Assembly (NCBI GenBank): GCA_003249095.1
Contig: QBMS01000016.1
Location: 1-48,443, forward strand
Source: Snowella sp.
Lineage (GTDB): Bacteria > Cyanobacteriota > Cyanobacteriia > Cyanobacteriales > Microcystaceae
Reading direction: 5' to 3'
Length of the DNA stretch: 48,443 nucleotides
Every line of letters starts with the position of its first letter. Within the stretch, counting starts at the first letter, position 1. The position numbers and the translations under genes are program-made. Below, piece after piece: positions 32,791 through 37,846 of the stretch. The notes beneath the pieces were generated by a model that saw only the letters and a program-made list of their open reading frames with translations, was not told where the DNA came from and made no database searches.

Positions 32791-33633
32791 ATGCAAACCT
32801 TAGAATTTCTCACCCAACCCATGAACGCAACTCTCACTAAGACTGAATCATTTTTAACCATTGAAAATGTGTCCAAAGTTTATCAAACTCCTCGCGGCCC
32901 CTACACTGTTTTAGAAGATGTTAATTTAACAGTTAATGAAGGCGAATTTATCTGCGTGATCGGTCACTCTGGTTGCGGTAAATCCACTTTGTTAAACATG
33001 GTTTCAGGTTTTGCCCATCCCACAGAAGGTTCCGTTCGAGTTGGCGGTAAATCCATTGTGGAACCTGGCCCCGATCGCATGGTGGTTTTCCAAGGTTATG
33101 CTCTTTTGCCCTGGTTAACAGCCTTAGAAAATGTTTATTTAGCGGTAGATTCGGTTTATCCCAATAAATCAGAAGCCGAGAAAAAAGCGATCGCTAAAGA
33201 GCATTTAGCAATGGTGGGTTTAACGGAAGCAATGGACAAGAAACCACCGCAAATTTCGGGAGGGATGAAACAACGGGTTTCTATTGCTAGAGCTTTAGCC
33301 ATTCGTCCCCAGGTCTTAATTTTAGATGAACCCTTTGGAGCTTTAGATGCCATTACTAAAGAAGAATTACAGGAAGAATTATTGCAAATTTGGAACGATC
33401 ATCGTTGTACGGTGTTGATGATTACCCACGATATTGATGAAGCCTTATTTCTGGCCGATCGCCTAGTCATGATGACCAATGGCCCCCACGCTAAAATCGG
33501 GGAAATTATGACGATTCCTTTCTCTCGGCCCCGTGATCGCGATCGTATTATGGAAGACCCAGAGTATTACAAATTGCGTAACTATGCTTTGGACTTCTTA
33601 TATAATCGTTTTGCCCACGACGATACGGATTAA
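32791..33633 (+). CDS. cmpD: BCT1 transporter ATPase CmpD
   Basis: The 280-residue ABC ATPase has Walker A GHSGCGKST, signature QISGGMKQRVSIARAL, Walker B VLILDEPFGALDA and H-loop ITHDIDEA. It pairs with CmpC. The C-terminal stretch EDPEYYKLRNYALDFLYNRF is characteristic of CmpD/NrtD. That same 3' end recurs, with mostly synonymous differences, 3.4 kb downstream at 36922. A perfect hairpin terminator closes the operon. Confidence 0.94.
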   Translation: MQTLEFLTQPMNATLTKTESFLTIENVSKVYQTPRGPYTVLEDVNLTVNEGEFICVIGHSGCGKSTLLNMVSGFAHPTEGSVRVGGKSIVEPGPDRMVVFQGYALLPWLTALENVYLAVDSVYPNKSEAEKKAIAKEHLAMVGLTEAMDKKPPQISGGMKQRVSIARALAIRPQVLILDEPFGALDAITKEELQEELLQIWNDHRCTVLMITHDIDEALFLADRLVMMTNGPHAKIGEIMTIPFSRPRDRDRIMEDPEYYKLRNYALDFLYNRFAHDDTD

Positions 33634-33651
33634 AAGTTGGGAATAGGTGAT

Positions 33652-33684
33652 ACTCGCTTGGATGTATTTTTAAGCGAGTTTTTT
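33652..33684 (+). terminator. Terminator of cmpABCD
   Basis: ACTCGCTT (33652-33659) pairs with AAGCGAGT (33672-33679), then T6. A diverged version of this same terminator is found at 37038-37072. Confidence 0.88.
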
Positions 33685-33723
33685 AGATTTTGATTATTTT
33701 GTAAAAATAAATCACAATTTTTT

Positions 33724-35145
33724 TTAAAATGGCATATCTTCAACAAGAAGAGATTTAGCTTTTTCATCAAACTCAGTATATAATTTCCACTCTTCTAAGC
33801 CATAGGCGCAACGAGATGCAAGAGAACAAAAGTCATACCGAAGTTCATAGCTAAGCTGCTCATCTTCACAAAATTCAGATACAACTCTTAAACCTTTATC
33901 ATATTCTTTTTTATCTACCAATAACTGAGCATAAATTAAAATTTTTTCAATTTCTAACAAATTATTTAGATGTAGTGGCTCGATAGCTTTGATAGCATTA
34001 ATTAGAAACAAATCAGGCAATTCTTTCTTAGTAGTATAAAAACTTTTTGCAGTTGTCAAATAGCTTTCTGCTAAAATAACCTGTACTTCATCATCACTAG
34101 GAGAGGGCAGTGAGTCAAATAATTTCCATGCAAAAAGTTTCATTTTATTATCTTGTCTTCTTAACCTAAAGAATCGCATAGCCGCTCTATATGCTTCAGG
34201 ATCAGGATACATTGTTGTTAATTGAATAATTTTTTGTTCTGCTTCTTCGGGGGAGAGACGCAAAATTCCTTGACTAACTTTCTCAATTTCTGCAATAATT
34301 TTATCTTTTGCAATTTCTAAATCAAGAGCGTAGAAGAGCGTAACATAGTTATTCACTAATTCTTCATTAGTATCTGGTTTACTAATAGCTAAAAACTCAC
34401 TGAGTTCTAATGCTGGACAAGAAAACAGAAAAAATAGCTTGTCTTCTGGTGTTTCAAAAATTTGGCAGTATTTATCCTTAAAGCCCAATAAATCATCAGG
34501 TTTAGGAACACGGGAAACAACGACTTTTATATCAATATTTTTGCCTAATGCTTTAGAAATCTGACTATTTTGAATCAGTTTTTTAATATGCTTCGTAAAT
34601 TGAATACTTTCCGAGCTTAAAGAAGAAAGCACCACCACTTCATCCGCTAACTGTTGGGTACATAAACCTGCAATTTCTGTGATTCCTGTACGAGAATCAA
34701 TAATTACAAAATCTGCATTTAATTCTGATTTAAGACGAGCCAAAAATTGTTGAAAAAAACCAACTCCATCACGCTCTTCTGAAAAAACAACCCTCCAATC
34801 TAATTGATTTAATTGGCGATAGTAGTTTTCAGACAAATATTGACCTGCGGGAATTAACCAAAGAGTTGTTTTTTCAGTATTATCTAAAGGAACTGGAATC
34901 AAAATATCCTGTAGTGATTCCATTGCTTGGTTAGTTTGCTGAAATAACAAAATATAATCTAGTAAACCTTTTTGATTGCTGGATAATTCAGGCAATCCAA
35001 ATTTAGCATTAATGCCAGGGGCCTCTAAATCAAAATCAATGACAACCGTTTTCAGCCCTAACTTAGCTAAATAAACCGCAAAATTAGAAGCGGCTAAGGT
35101 TCGACCAACGCCACCCTTATAGGAATAAAAGGTAATAACTTTCAT
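33724..35145 (-). CDS. KGGVGR-motif variant ParA/MinD-like ATPase with helical C-terminus
   Basis: This 473-residue P-loop protein opens MKVITFYSYKGGVGRT: the deviant Walker A has Arg in place of the usual Lys (KGGVGRT for KGG-x-GKT), with DFDLEAPG as switch and a DFVIIDSRTG Walker B. The C-terminal 200 residues are helical and TPR-like. This KGGVGR group is common in cyanobacterial conflict or signalling clusters with toxins, TIR or CHAT proteins. I place the start at ATG 35145: it overlaps the TGA of the antitoxin gene as ATGA, a coupled pair, while the longer frame (35163) opens with TTG. It is the last gene of the toxin-antitoxin unit. Its role, such as sensing or positioning, is unknown. 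Confidence 0.85.
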   Translation of the reverse strand: MKVITFYSYKGGVGRTLAASNFAVYLAKLGLKTVVIDFDLEAPGINAKFGLPELSSNQKGLLDYILLFQQTNQAMESLQDILIPVPLDNTEKTTLWLIPAGQYLSENYYRQLNQLDWRVVFSEERDGVGFFQQFLARLKSELNADFVIIDSRTGITEIAGLCTQQLADEVVVLSSLSSESIQFTKHIKKLIQNSQISKALGKNIDIKVVVSRVPKPDDLLGFKDKYCQIFETPEDKLFFLFSCPALELSEFLAISKPDTNEELVNNYVTLFYALDLEIAKDKIIAEIEKVSQGILRLSPEEAEQKIIQLTTMYPDPEAYRAAMRFFRLRRQDNKMKLFAWKLFDSLPSPSDDEVQVILAESYLTTAKSFYTTKKELPDLFLINAIKAIEPLHLNNLLEIEKILIYAQLLVDKKEYDKGLRVVSEFCEDEQLSYELRYDFCSLASRCAYGLEEWKLYTEFDEKAKSLLVEDMPF

Positions 35146-35621
35146 GCTGCTATGGCTCCCCAAAAACCTTGTTTACGAATAATATTATTGACTGTAGATG
35201 ACTTATTTTGAGATTCTATCGGCACTAAATTTAAAGAAGATTCTGTTTGATCTTCACTTATTTGAAGTTCATTTTCATCCATTAGTTTTAATTCGGTGCT
35301 GACACGAGTAAATTCCTTGCCCTGCCAATAAATTAAGGCTTCAAAATCTGCTCCCAATGCGTCTAAATAGGCTAAAACAGATTCAAAAGTATGATCATTG
35401 TTAGCACTTTCCAGTTTAGAGACCCAACTTTGAGTGACCCCCAATTTTTCCGCAACCTCTTTTTGAGTCAATCCCGTTGCTTTACGAAGATTTCGCATCG
35501 CCTGAGTGAGATCAATGCGGAATAATTCTTGACATTCAATCAAGTGAGTTTCTGGTGTTTCTGGCAGAACCTCTTGGAAATAATCGAAAACATCACTTCC
35601 TTCGTGGTTATTGAGTGTCAT
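35142..35621 (-). CDS. XRE-family antitoxin (HigA-like)
   Basis: The 159-residue protein has a central helix-turn-helix of the XRE/Cro type (residues about 38-95): LRKATGLTQKEVAEKLGVTQSWVSKLE. The N-terminal 35 residues are acidic; the C-terminal tail is Gln/Ser/Glu-rich and longer than in plain HigA. It overlaps the toxin gene by 14 bp upstream and shares ATGA with the ATPase downstream. AAGGAG lies six bases before the ATG. By family it neutralises the HigB-like toxin and represses its own promoter. Confidence 0.88.
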   Translation of the reverse strand: MTLNNHEGSDVFDYFQEVLPETPETHLIECQELFRIDLTQAMRNLRKATGLTQKEVAEKLGVTQSWVSKLESANNDHTFESVLAYLDALGADFEALIYWQGKEFTRVSTELKLMDENELQISEDQTESSLNLVPIESQNKSSTVNNIIRKQGFWGAIAA

Positions 35622-35994
35622 AGTCGTCTCCTTGGTTGAGAATTGAATCCCTTCGCTGTAGGGCGATATTTAAATGTTGTTTCGGAATTTTACGATCTTT
35701 TTTCTTGTAACCATGTAATAAATAAATTTGCAGTCTTTCCTTGACAAAGCAAAGAAAAATACGAGGATTATTGGGCGTATTGGCTAAACGTAAAGCGTAG
35801 AGATTATCATCAACTTTTTCTAAAATATCCGATCGCTCTACCATTAACATAAAGCCCATTTCTTGTAAGCGTTTGAGACGAGCCTTGATTTGCTTTAACT
35901 CCGCCTGAGTAAGGACAGAAGCCTGTAAAAATTCCTTGACAGGTTCCGTGCCGTTGGCTTGACGATAGAATTTTATTTGCCATTGCTGACTCAC
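35608..35994 (-). CDS. HigB/Gp49-like RelE-superfamily toxin
   Basis: The 128-residue basic protein shows the phage Gp49/HigB pattern: WQIKFYRQANGTEPVKEFL at the start, DNLYALRLANTPNNPRIFLCF in the middle, and YLLHGYKKKDRKIPKQHLNIALQR at the end. Such proteins are ribosome-dependent mRNA interferases. The toxin precedes its antitoxin, the order typical of higBA, with a 14-bp overlap. The gene lies about 68 bp behind the PLD-like gene on the same strand. Confidence 0.9.
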   Translation of the reverse strand: MSQQWQIKFYRQANGTEPVKEFLQASVLTQAELKQIKARLKRLQEMGFMLMVERSDILEKVDDNLYALRLANTPNNPRIFLCFVKERLQIYLLHGYKKKDRKIPKQHLNIALQRRDSILNQGDDYDTQ

Positions 35995-36061
35995 CTCGAT
36001 TCGCCTCTAATTTATTATGACATATTTAGAATATTTTGTTAAAGGAGTTATTGAAAAAAGC

Positions 36062-36778
36062 TTAACAATGGCTGAACTCTTTGGCTAATCTGAGATTCAA
36101 GCGTAGGTCTGGAGCCTCCCGATAGATTTGGATCTGCTCATCCAGTAAATCAGGATCGCTTGTTTTCCAGCCAATCTCCCTTGGGGCATAGAGCGTTTCC
36201 CTCGAACTCAACACATTATGACTACTCATTAACGCAAATTGGCGATCGCAAACAAGATATTTCTCATGCGTTCCCAATAACTTTAATTCAAACTGTTCAG
36301 GATATTGATTTTTTAGTTTGACCAAATCAGGATAGGCATCATAACTTCTTGTACTATCCACCTGAACAACGCACTGACCATCTTTGCTAATTTGGATCAA
36401 CCGACCATCAGGATGTATTCCTCGAATATCGTAGCTGTATCCCCAGCCGATCGCTAAACGACAACCCCTATCCAGTAAGGCATTCATTCTCAAAAGAACA
36501 TCTTGGTCAATACTCCGCTTACTCAGCCAAGGACTGACAATGATCAATTGTTCCCTGGCCCAGTCCAATGCGTTTAGTAGCATTACTCGACTGGCCGAAC
36601 GACCTTTAACAATTTCAACAGACGCTTGTTGATTTTGCTGTGTCTGCTCACAGATATCCTTAAATAACTCCAGTAGTTGAATACCGTTGGGATGCTCAAT
36701 CAATTTATTTAGTAGCTCCAGGGAATTATCCGAATAACCACGAGATAAACCCTCTAATACCCGATACATCTGTCCCAT
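36062..36778 (-). CDS. Phospholipase D-like domain protein, single HKD
   Basis: The 238-residue protein has one HKD-type motif: HEKYLVCDRQFALMSSHN, with His, Lys, Asp and the downstream S-x-N, preceded by a typical strand LIIVSPWLSKRSI. One HKD per chain implies a dimeric active site, as in nucleases of the family (Nuc, BfiI). An N-terminal 75-residue helical region has no recognised domain. It is soluble, and therefore more likely a nuclease or nucleic-acid phosphoesterase than a lipase. It heads the leftward cassette of toxin, antitoxin and ATPase. Upstream lie two tandem dyads. Confidence 0.75.
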   Translation of the reverse strand: MGQMYRVLEGLSRGYSDNSLELLNKLIEHPNGIQLLELFKDICEQTQQNQQASVEIVKGRSASRVMLLNALDWAREQLIIVSPWLSKRSIDQDVLLRMNALLDRGCRLAIGWGYSYDIRGIHPDGRLIQISKDGQCVVQVDSTRSYDAYPDLVKLKNQYPEQFELKLLGTHEKYLVCDRQFALMSSHNVLSSRETLYAPREIGWKTSDPDLLDEQIQIYREAPDLRLNLRLAKEFSHC

Positions 36779-36848: not shown

Positions 36849-36886
36849 ATTCTAAAAATAGAATGTTTTTATTCTAGAAATAGAAT
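36849..36886. promoter_or_regulatory. Tandem dyad operator upstream of the PLD-HigBA cassette
   Basis: ATTCTAAAAATAGAAT (36849-36864) and ATTCTAGAAATAGAAT (36871-36886) are two inverted repeats of 16 bp, 22 bp (two helical turns) apart, about 70 bases before the PLD gene start. They have the form of a cooperative repressor site; the cassette's own XRE protein is the obvious candidate. Confidence 0.55.
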
Positions 36887-36921: not shown

Positions 36922-37019
36922 GCGATCGCATTATGGAAGATCCAGAATATTACAAATTGCGTAACTATGCTCTTGATTTCTTATATAACCGTTTTGCCCA
37001 CGATGATGATGCGGCCTAA
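36922..37019 (+). pseudogene. Orphan 3' end of a cmpD-like gene
   Basis: Bases 36922-37019 match the last ~95 bases of cmpD (33539-33633) closely. Coded residues MEDPEYYKLRNYALDFLYNR are unchanged; nearly all base changes are synonymous (GAC/GAT, GAG/GAA, TTG/CTT, AAT/AAC), and only the last few residues differ. The match continues through the stop into the terminator. No upstream part of the gene exists; homology begins at a HIP1 octamer (36922-36929). The silent pattern means the copy diverged while still functional and was later truncated. Confidence 0.88.
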
Positions 37020-37037
37020 AAGCTGGGAATAGATGGT

Positions 37038-37072
37038 ACTCGTTTAGATTCATTTCTAGGCGAGTTTTTTTG
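37038..37072 (+). terminator. Terminator of the orphan cmpD-like 3' end
   Basis: ACTCGTTTAG (37038-37047) pairs with CTAGGCGAGT through two G-U pairs, followed by T7. It is homologous to the terminator at 33652 but keeps pairing despite sequence change. Confidence 0.8.
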
Positions 37073-37846
37073 TTTTTATAAAAGTTAATTTAACCAATTT
37101 TCTATTATCAATCTGGAGACGGCGATCGCCTAATCAATAACCCTCTCCTAAAATATGCTCTCCTAATCACTCACTCATAAAAACACGATCCCAAAGCTTA
37201 CGTACATATTTTTGAGCCTAGATGTTTTAGTATTTATAATACTTCATAAAGTTCATTATTAGGATTTAGCAAAGAAAATATAATTCGTTCTTTTTCAATG
37301 TCTAGTTGATGATGATCTTAAGTTAAATCCTAACAACACACTGTCGTTTTTGCTCCGAATTAAGCAACCCGTCAAAACTCATATTCTGTAATACTTATTG
37401 GGGTTAGTGATCGTACTTTTTGTGAGAAATGCGGGAAATATGGCGAAACAAAAAGCTGAAAAAGCGATGATTTTAGCGCAAGATTCTTTGATTTTGGGTC
37501 AGGTTTTAAATGATATTAAGATTTTTAAATGGATCATTGGCGATCTTCCCAAAGAGTTAGTTTTGAGTTAAAATTCTCTGTAGTTCATAAATAGGCACGC
37601 AAATTGGCATAATTAAGCTTGTTGTTATGTTATGTGAGAAATTTTCAGTAATGTCCTGAGTCTGTGGATAAGATCGTGCCTAATAAATAAACTCAGTGCC
37701 TTTCAAAAATAGGATCAACAGGTTTGGAACATTATCAATTAATTCGATATCAATGCGATCGCGGTTTAATTAAATTGATTTTCCTGTCAGGATTCAAGAC
37801 CGTTAAATCCTTAAATTAAGGGAATATTAGGATACTAAAAGAAAAA
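37073..37846. other. Intergenic region between the cassette remnant and bioF
   Basis: About 770 AT-rich bases without a recognised gene. The best frame is a 43-codon one at 37440-37571 (MAKQKAEKAMILAQDSLILG at its start), of unknown nature and possibly a remnant. No tRNA or other RNA gene is seen. Confidence 0.4.

Follow-up and report, generated by a model that had tools for sequence, protein, structure and literature searches.

The stretch analysed here, called the window throughout, comprises 48,443 nucleotides of Snowella sp. (contig QBMS01000016.1) and carries, on its minus strand, a HigB-type toxin gene and an XRE-type antitoxin gene followed by a KGGVGR-family ATPase gene and preceded by a gene for a phospholipase D (PLD)-like protein. 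The toxin gene (35608..35994) starts at GTG and encodes 128 amino acids (aa) of the Gp49/DUF891 type. The antitoxin (35142..35621, 159 aa) has a helix-turn-helix (HTH) region at about residues 39-94 and a C-terminal extension, whose last 15 residues (35145..35189) hold an invariant Trp-Gly pair and are proposed here as a docking peptide for the ATPase. The ATPase itself (33724..35145, 473 aa) combines an NTPase domain (about residues 1-276) with TPR-like helical repeats (about residues 277-470), and the PLD gene (36062..36778) encodes a stand-alone, single-HKD protein of 238 aa. An earlier reading made from the letters alone, referred to below as the original prediction, had described four leftward genes, and their open reading frames (ORFs) were confirmed in place; the 14 bp overlap of toxin and antitoxin (35608-35621) and the ATGA shared by the antitoxin stop and the ATPase start were likewise as described. 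The ATPase starts at the ATG of this shared ATGA, and the TTG at 35163 is the mechanical first start in the ORF list. The same gene arrangement recurs in other genomes, so it is not a product of chance.

The toxin matches Gp49/DUF891 (PF05973) at 46.6 bits against a Pfam cut-off of 23.9, which places it in the Gp49 branch and not in HigB_toxin (PF09907). HTH_31 and HTH_3 are both above the Pfam cut-off in the antitoxin. A Gp49 protein above cut-off with an XRE antitoxin gene adjoining downstream is the composition of a type II Gp49/HigBA pair, and we infer that the antitoxin neutralises HigB toxicity.

The ATPase matches NCBIfam AAA_KGGVGR (NF047398) at 163.8 bits, against a curated cut-off of 90. 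Residues K10, R15, D37, D39 and D150 are invariant in 25 of 25 aligned ATPases; we take K10 to be the signature lysine, R15 to replace the P-loop lysine and the aspartates to be conserved acidic switch residues. A structural model from these 25 aligned sequences (pLDDT 90) has an N-terminal MinD/ParA domain, with a best MinD match of Z 24.4 over 239-240 residues, and a C-terminal half formed by an array of helical hairpins. Over that half, the family profile matches TPR proteins, including consensus TPRs, TOM70 and STI1. Pfam TPR is above cut-off in two relatives (L038 and L086; L numbers denote loci) and was not found in the ATPases of the window, L021 or L024, so the term TPR-like rests, for the window protein, on the alignment and the model; both bear out the TPR-like tail that had been proposed. 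C-terminal peptides are known ligands of TPR domains, for example those of Hop.

A fold of this kind could also belong to a segregation device, in which the ParA-like ATPase would work with the HTH antitoxin as a ParB-like centromere binder to stabilise a replicon or island and the toxin would serve as a back-up. The MinD match is joined by one to the plasmid Delta ParA (2oze, Z 19.5), and the antitoxin matches HTH_ParB weakly, at 20.9 bits against a cut-off of 22.6. However, the P-loop lysine is Arg15 in all 25 aligned ATPases, the protein carries TPR repeats, related ATPases follow pairs whose second gene has no Pfam HTH match (one representative), and the neighbours of the cassette are nitrate-transport-type genes (named by eye), not replication genes. 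A role in segregation is accordingly the least probable of the explanations considered.

A neighbourhood search for HigB-XRE-KGGVGR triples had been put forward as the key check of the original prediction, and the triple does recur: besides the window, it is present in L009, L010, L012, L022, L023 and L024, where profiles for HigB and XRE, built from four triples, identified the genes beside the ATPase. All six loci are cyanobacterial, and L012 and L022 are near-copies. The ATPase itself has matches at 1e-30 in 3 of 50 genomes of the family and at 1e-25 in 12 of 388 genomes of the class, four of them above 500 bits, with the window genome counted in each case. A single-protein pattern scan with the window ATPase returned 126 pattern matches and confirmed no relative; with an alignment of five ATPases as the query, a scan of bacterial genomes confirmed 318 loci, and the analysis covered the best 80 of them.

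Close ATPases (at least 48% identity) also occur outside the triple, in L011/L021, apparently one organism, and in L025. The bases before the L011/L021 ATPase read ALVSDRGLWGGNVA and then a stop, and they resemble the end of the L009 antitoxin, ELVSKQGLWGGGKAA; this remnant of an antitoxin end suggests that the toxin-antitoxin pair was probably deleted there. The L025 ATPase (Chloroflexota, 48-49% identical) follows a different protein of 265 aa (L025:5207-6001) in the antitoxin position, which has no Pfam match and is not joined to the HTH cluster in BLASTP. A by-eye description of this protein as HEAT-like was dropped, as Pfam finds nothing.

Among the best 80 of the 318 loci, the ATPase comes after at least five distinct toxin/antitoxin-like pairs. 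Mechanically called ORFs were used, and of those on the ATPase's strand the longest one with its end close to the ATPase start was taken as the upstream ORF. In 77 of 80 loci its end falls in the range from 41 bp ahead of that start to 3 bp inside it; the exceptions are L021, with no ORF, and L047 and L049, with a wider gap and with genes like the 276 aa class and its partner visible further upstream. By BLASTP, the nearest upstream gene falls into a recurrent cluster in 76 of 80 loci and the gene before it in 71 of 80. The nearest genes form clusters of 57, 17 and 2 plus three singletons, the cluster of 57 containing the several kinds of HTH-type antitoxin, and the toxin-position genes form clusters of 19, 17, 17, 13, 3 and 2. 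In the toxin position, representatives match DUF6932 (PF22014) and HigB_toxin (PF09907) above cut-off; in the antitoxin position, MqsA_antitoxin is matched at 26.8 bits (cut-off 30). Representatives of three toxin-position families have no useful Pfam match. Since Gp49 and HigB_toxin are presumably both RelE-like, these are at least five toxin-position families unjoined by BLASTP, not five proven folds.

Two of these families are nearly or wholly without Pfam matches. The first, of 276 aa, is found at L035:4553-5380 and in 16 related loci, and one of 12 members weakly matches PF07737 (E 0.002). The model of the L035 protein (pLDDT 92.6) has CopC, OspC3, DarT and Tpt1 as its best Foldseek matches, at E 0.005 and weaker; we take these to be ADP-ribosyltransferase-fold proteins, and the resemblance is no more than suggestive. 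The second, of about 120 aa, carries a conserved GRSFH motif, lies before MqsA-like antitoxins in L086, L087 and 15 related loci, and has no Pfam family in 12 of 12 members.

Similar arrangements were found beyond these 80 loci. Nine plasmid records match. In H1 and H5, a 'ParA family' ATPase is immediately preceded by an MqsA-family antitoxin gene, and the entries under the match for H2 and H4 name this same arrangement; for H7, the entry is a TIR protein. In H3, the ATPase lies two genes after a caspase gene, the genes around the match in H6 and H8 are uncharacterised, and H9 is without annotation. No match was found among phage records. Samples centred on two other genomes contained it in 2 of 247 and 1 of 199 genomes, centres counted; with 5-7 candidates scored per genome, these counts are lower bounds, and the sole new locus, L187, has a pair identical to that of L054. 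Among 18 extra loci, which include L187, five (L178, L179, L188, L190 and L191) have both MqsA-class genes, L189 has the antitoxin-like gene only, and 11 (L180, L181 and L192-L200) gave no match to these pair families. A quick-method ATPase tree of 83 rows, with L047 left out, shows 10 changes of partner class, against a possible minimum of 6 and a shuffled mean of 48. One such swap places the DUF6932-type L042 and L080 with the HigB-type L043 and L045 (SH-aLRT 100), and L025 lies inside a cyanobacterial ATPase clade (SH-aLRT 99).

A short C-terminal stretch is common to antitoxins of several groups. Within the window's antitoxin family (seven sequences), Trp154-Gly155 are the only invariant residues past position 111. 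Similarity across families was measured on 71 antitoxin C-termini, after removal of near-identical tails and of L047, L049, L073 and L074, with a 12-column profile trained without one group and tested on that group against shuffles of each tail. The profile recognises the left-out group in four of five cases: DUF6932 partners (z 10.0), HigA (z 4.6), Gp49 partners (z 4.7), and the partners of the 276 aa class together with L027, L054 and L025 (z 3.8), with 0 of 500 shuffles as high in each. An earlier run gave z 5.4, 5.4 and 4.4, and 3.8 (1/2000) for the 276 aa class partners with L027/L054/L025 when trained on HTH antitoxins only. The L025 tail is similar to the others taken singly (p 0.03), and six additional MqsA-class loci gave p below 0.05 in three (0.0015 to 0.044), 0.06 in two and 0.53 in one.

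Control regions further inside the antitoxins behave differently. Inner windows at -60..-30, trained and tested alike, showed no transfer in five of five groups, and the tail profile placed on these inner windows was null in four. The region at -90..-60 did transfer for the HigA group (z 4.0, 0/500), presumably through HTH homology. A pooled motif search on all tails scored 540 against 30 shuffles (mean 319, highest 338), but inner 30-60 windows scored an equal 540; it was discarded because group members are homologous 30-60 residues inside as well.

The tail also follows the presence of the ATPase. In the window's family, it is found in 7 of 7 antitoxins with an ATPase versus 0 of 3 without (Fisher p 0.008, with rows that are not independent because of kinship). 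The ATPase-free members came from an antitoxin alignment search of the 388 genomes, with up to nine candidates scored per genome, which found six antitoxins, three of them new: L204 (150 aa, beside a Gp49-like HigB), L205 (120 aa, with other neighbours) and L206 (247 aa, with a different end). None of the three has the tail or a nearby ATPase, and an ATPase search of their genomes at 1e-10 was empty. This coincidence of absences argues that the ATPase is not an independent neighbour, and it supports the tripartite module that the original prediction had drawn. Among more distant Gp49 loci, antitoxins without an adjacent ATPase are 69-124 aa long in 20 of 20 cases (L102-L121, several of them near-copies) versus 159-193 aa with one, and none of the 20 matches the tail profile at p 0.05; absence here means absence beside the locus, as the genomes were not all searched for the ATPase. 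The second HigB of the window genome (L122) has no antitoxin ORF in its stretch and was left out. Scored with a profile from which their own group was left out, two of six ATPase-linked tails reach p 0.05 and the other four lie at p 0.06-0.27, so the score of a single tail is weak.

The evidence from the tails suggests an ATPase that acts through the antitoxin. On balance, a slight preference is given to a three-gene, here four-gene, module in which the ATPase would serve as a nucleotide-gated custodian of the antitoxin, docking on its tail; the idea in the original prediction that the ATPase 'senses or licenses' the toxin is likewise an inference. In the proposed mechanism, the antitoxin would neutralise HigB and repress transcription through an ATTCTA-type operator, and the ATPase, probably as an ATP-bound dimer, would grip the antitoxin tail with its TPR part and so keep the antitoxin folded or protected. 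If the nucleotide state changed, or the tail were competed away, the antitoxin would fail and HigB would arrest growth. In a few lineages, a second nuclease, the PLD protein, would join the module as an optional, co-regulated part.

The same tail could serve an opposite end, with a pair that is silent on its own and an ATPase that, as a sensor of infection or stress, uses the tail to detach the antitoxin from the toxin. This trigger gains some appeal from gene contexts that are typical for defence effectors: more distant KGGVGR ATPases lie after TIR-like proteins (named by eye) in L013, L014, L016, L017 and L018, the plasmid ATPase mentioned above follows a caspase gene at two genes' distance, and the PADLOC candidate PDC-M28B has a model that matches the window ATPase domain. 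Under triggering, a pair that had lost its ATPase would be silent and safe. None of the three ATPase-free family members has the tail, however, whereas an ATPase without its pair is seen; the ATPase-free pairs without tails and the pairless ATPase fit dependence better than triggering, on small numbers. In addition, no phage phenotype followed from deleting PDC-M63AB in one E. coli strain (PMC12409345); the A component of this PADLOC candidate is similar to the DUF6932 toxin class. Triggering is therefore rated as possible but unlikely. The TIR-linked members also imply that the toxin-antitoxin association is a feature of one part of the KGGVGR family. As a separate observation, the TIR-like proteins of L013, L014, L016 and L018 end in PRL plus one residue (four of five; L017 differs), which is possibly another C-terminal tag read by KGGVGR ATPases.

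Several results weigh against custody of the antitoxin by the ATPase. The L011/L021 ATPase exists without a toxin-antitoxin pair. Transfer of the tail profile to MqsA-type antitoxins is weak (z 1.8, 22/500; z 1.3, 94/1000 in the earlier run), just 4 of the 18 non-HTH tails tested reach p 0.05 singly, and the tail profile is borderline on the inner -60..-30 windows of the 276 aa class partners (z 1.7, 28/500). Because a single BLASTP cluster takes in the HTH antitoxins of four groups, common descent could account for the likeness of their tails. Across groups, once group make-up is allowed for, tail similarity shows no relation to ATPase distance (740 of 2000 permutations as low); it does track ATPase distance for the closest pairs (13/5000 and 11/5000), a post hoc result with few independent swaps, and is null at looser cut-offs (1229/5000 and 3201/5000). 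Finally, the Trp-Gly codons of the window subfamily overlap the likely ribosome-binding site (Shine-Dalgarno) of the ATPase gene, so that their conservation, and their loss with the ATPase, could partly reflect a translation signal.

Taken further, this last point would make the ATPase a mere passenger of the operon, translated from the antitoxin end, with tail codons that act as its ribosome-binding site and a pair that stabilises its inheritance. The Trp-Gly codons in the window family read TGGGG, a Shine-Dalgarno-like run, and the upstream stop overlaps the ATPase start by +3 (ATGA-type) in 14 of 80 loci. Yet the stop-to-start distance varies from +3 to -41 across 77 of 80 loci while the motif stays near the protein's end, the profile ending a median of 2 residues from the C-terminus (73 tails). 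In L025, Trp-Gly lies about 25 nt before the ATPase start and GAAGAG is nearer, and, again, the tail transfers between groups where the inner windows do not. Such hitch-hiking is judged very unlikely, and custody of the antitoxin is retained as the preferred reading.

More tentatively, and with somewhat less than even confidence, the TPR-bearing MinD/ParA-type ATPase may be an exchangeable, general custodian of type II antitoxins that reads a short C-terminal tag. The tag would be carried by HTH antitoxins of several kinds and by no fewer than three proteins in the antitoxin position that sequence does not join to them (the partner of the ADP-ribosyltransferase-like toxin, the L027/L054 pair and the L025 protein), placing many toxins under one nucleotide-gated switch, an 'ATPase addiction'. 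It has long been asked why most toxin-antitoxin pairs are silent and how they are released, and a dedicated ATPase that recurs next to several toxin families, with antitoxins that share a tail, makes the question open to direct tests. If the idea is true, toxin-antitoxin pairs would also be tied to those KGGVGR systems whose effectors are TIR-like.

The fourth gene is less firmly tied to the module. The window PLD protein has one intact, single-copy HxKx4Dx6(G/S)SxN motif at residues 171-188 and scores 23.6 bits for PLDc_2, below the Pfam cut-off of 27; its relative in L024 (Geitlerinema sp. BBD 1991-9) is above that cut-off, is 44-45% identical (44% over 225 residues), and ends 39 bp before higB. 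A four-part module thus has support in two of seven triples, the window and L024, which is weaker than the support for the triple itself. No PLD gene was found near the other five, with 5 kb of upstream sequence covered in L022 and about 0.3-0.6 kb in L009, L010, L012 and L023; an initial judgement that PLD is unlinked to the triple came from loci with little upstream sequence and was overturned by L024. A PLD match is found in 134 of 291 cyanobacterial genomes, in many cases within a protein of 600-1100 residues, which makes its mere presence uninformative; only adjacency counts. The window protein resembles MkoB (62.5 bits). Membership in Mokosh (MkoB/MkoC) takes a PLD domain together with the system's helicase gene; the three genes downstream of the window PLD are not helicases, the next ORF upstream is more than 1 kb away and was not scanned, and the assignment was rejected. 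Stand-alone, single-HKD PLD relatives in L124, L127 and L128 lie directly after a small DUF4258-like protein (below the Pfam cut-off in the scanned L124 and L128), perhaps a separate toxin-like pair.

Shared upstream elements occur before both higB and the PLD gene. An operator- or promoter-like element, TATTCTAAATATGTCATAATA (36013..36033, minus strand), precedes higB, with similar elements in other triples; in each of 6 loci examined, higB has an ATTCTA/ATTCCA element 33-52 bp ahead of it, where 0.05 occurrences are expected per 80 nt. The element also precedes the PLD gene in L024 and in the window, there as two tandem palindromes, ATTCTANAAATAGAAT, on the gene's upstream side (36849-36864 and 36871-36886; 36849..36886, no strand assigned). 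The palindrome pattern has three matches in the window at up to two mismatches, two of them exact, and three were reached in 2 of 100 shuffles.

The boundaries of the cassette are marked by two plus-strand copies of the nrtD 3' end with a terminator-like hairpin (91% and 79% identity), copy 1 at 33539..33691 on the left and a partial duplicate at 36922..37077 on the right. All four genes lie within this repeat, which fits arrival as a unit. Copy 2 ends HDDDAA, as does nrtD of L154, the closest relative found (96% protein identity), and copy 1 ends HDDTD; no matching hairpin sequence was found after nrtD in L154.

In a literature search that left preprints and most subscription journals outside its reach, 'KGGVGR' appeared in no paper and no account of such triples was found, and the nearest known systems each share only part of the arrangement. 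The Tad-Ata/HigBA type II pairs of the Gp49 (DUF891) branch have the same toxin family, DUF891 being the Tad toxin family according to PMC2701414; in cyanobacteria, such pairs without an adjacent ATPase have short antitoxins, unlike that of the window. PDC-M63 (AB), a PADLOC candidate, has an A model that matches the DUF6932 toxin-position gene of one ATPase-linked class, and is described as a two-gene system, with the deletion result given above (PMC12409345). ptuXYZ has a RelE-fold (BECR RNase) toxin in an operon with a PtuA-like ATPase (PMC11980606), but its ATPase family, gene order and partner nuclease all differ from those of the window module. The pairs of a TIR-like protein and a KGGVGR ATPase have the same ATPase domain, to which the PDC-M28B model also matches, directly after an effector-like gene; no antitoxin is seen in them, and their ATPases are just 35-42% identical over the NTPase domain.

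The closest parallel is the TAC system of Mycobacterium tuberculosis (HigB, HigA and a SecB-like chaperone), which is likewise a HigBA pair with a third gene downstream. In both, the antitoxins of members with the third gene stand out by a C-terminal extension, which in TAC is the ChAD (PMC6377645); growth arrest on competition for ChAD is reported there as well. The third protein differs, being SecB-like there and here an unrelated MinD/ParA-type ATPase with TPR-like repeats, and, in contrast to TAC, similar tails are present here in several antitoxin groups. By analogy, the module may follow the chaperone-addiction logic of TAC, with the ATPase replacing SecB.

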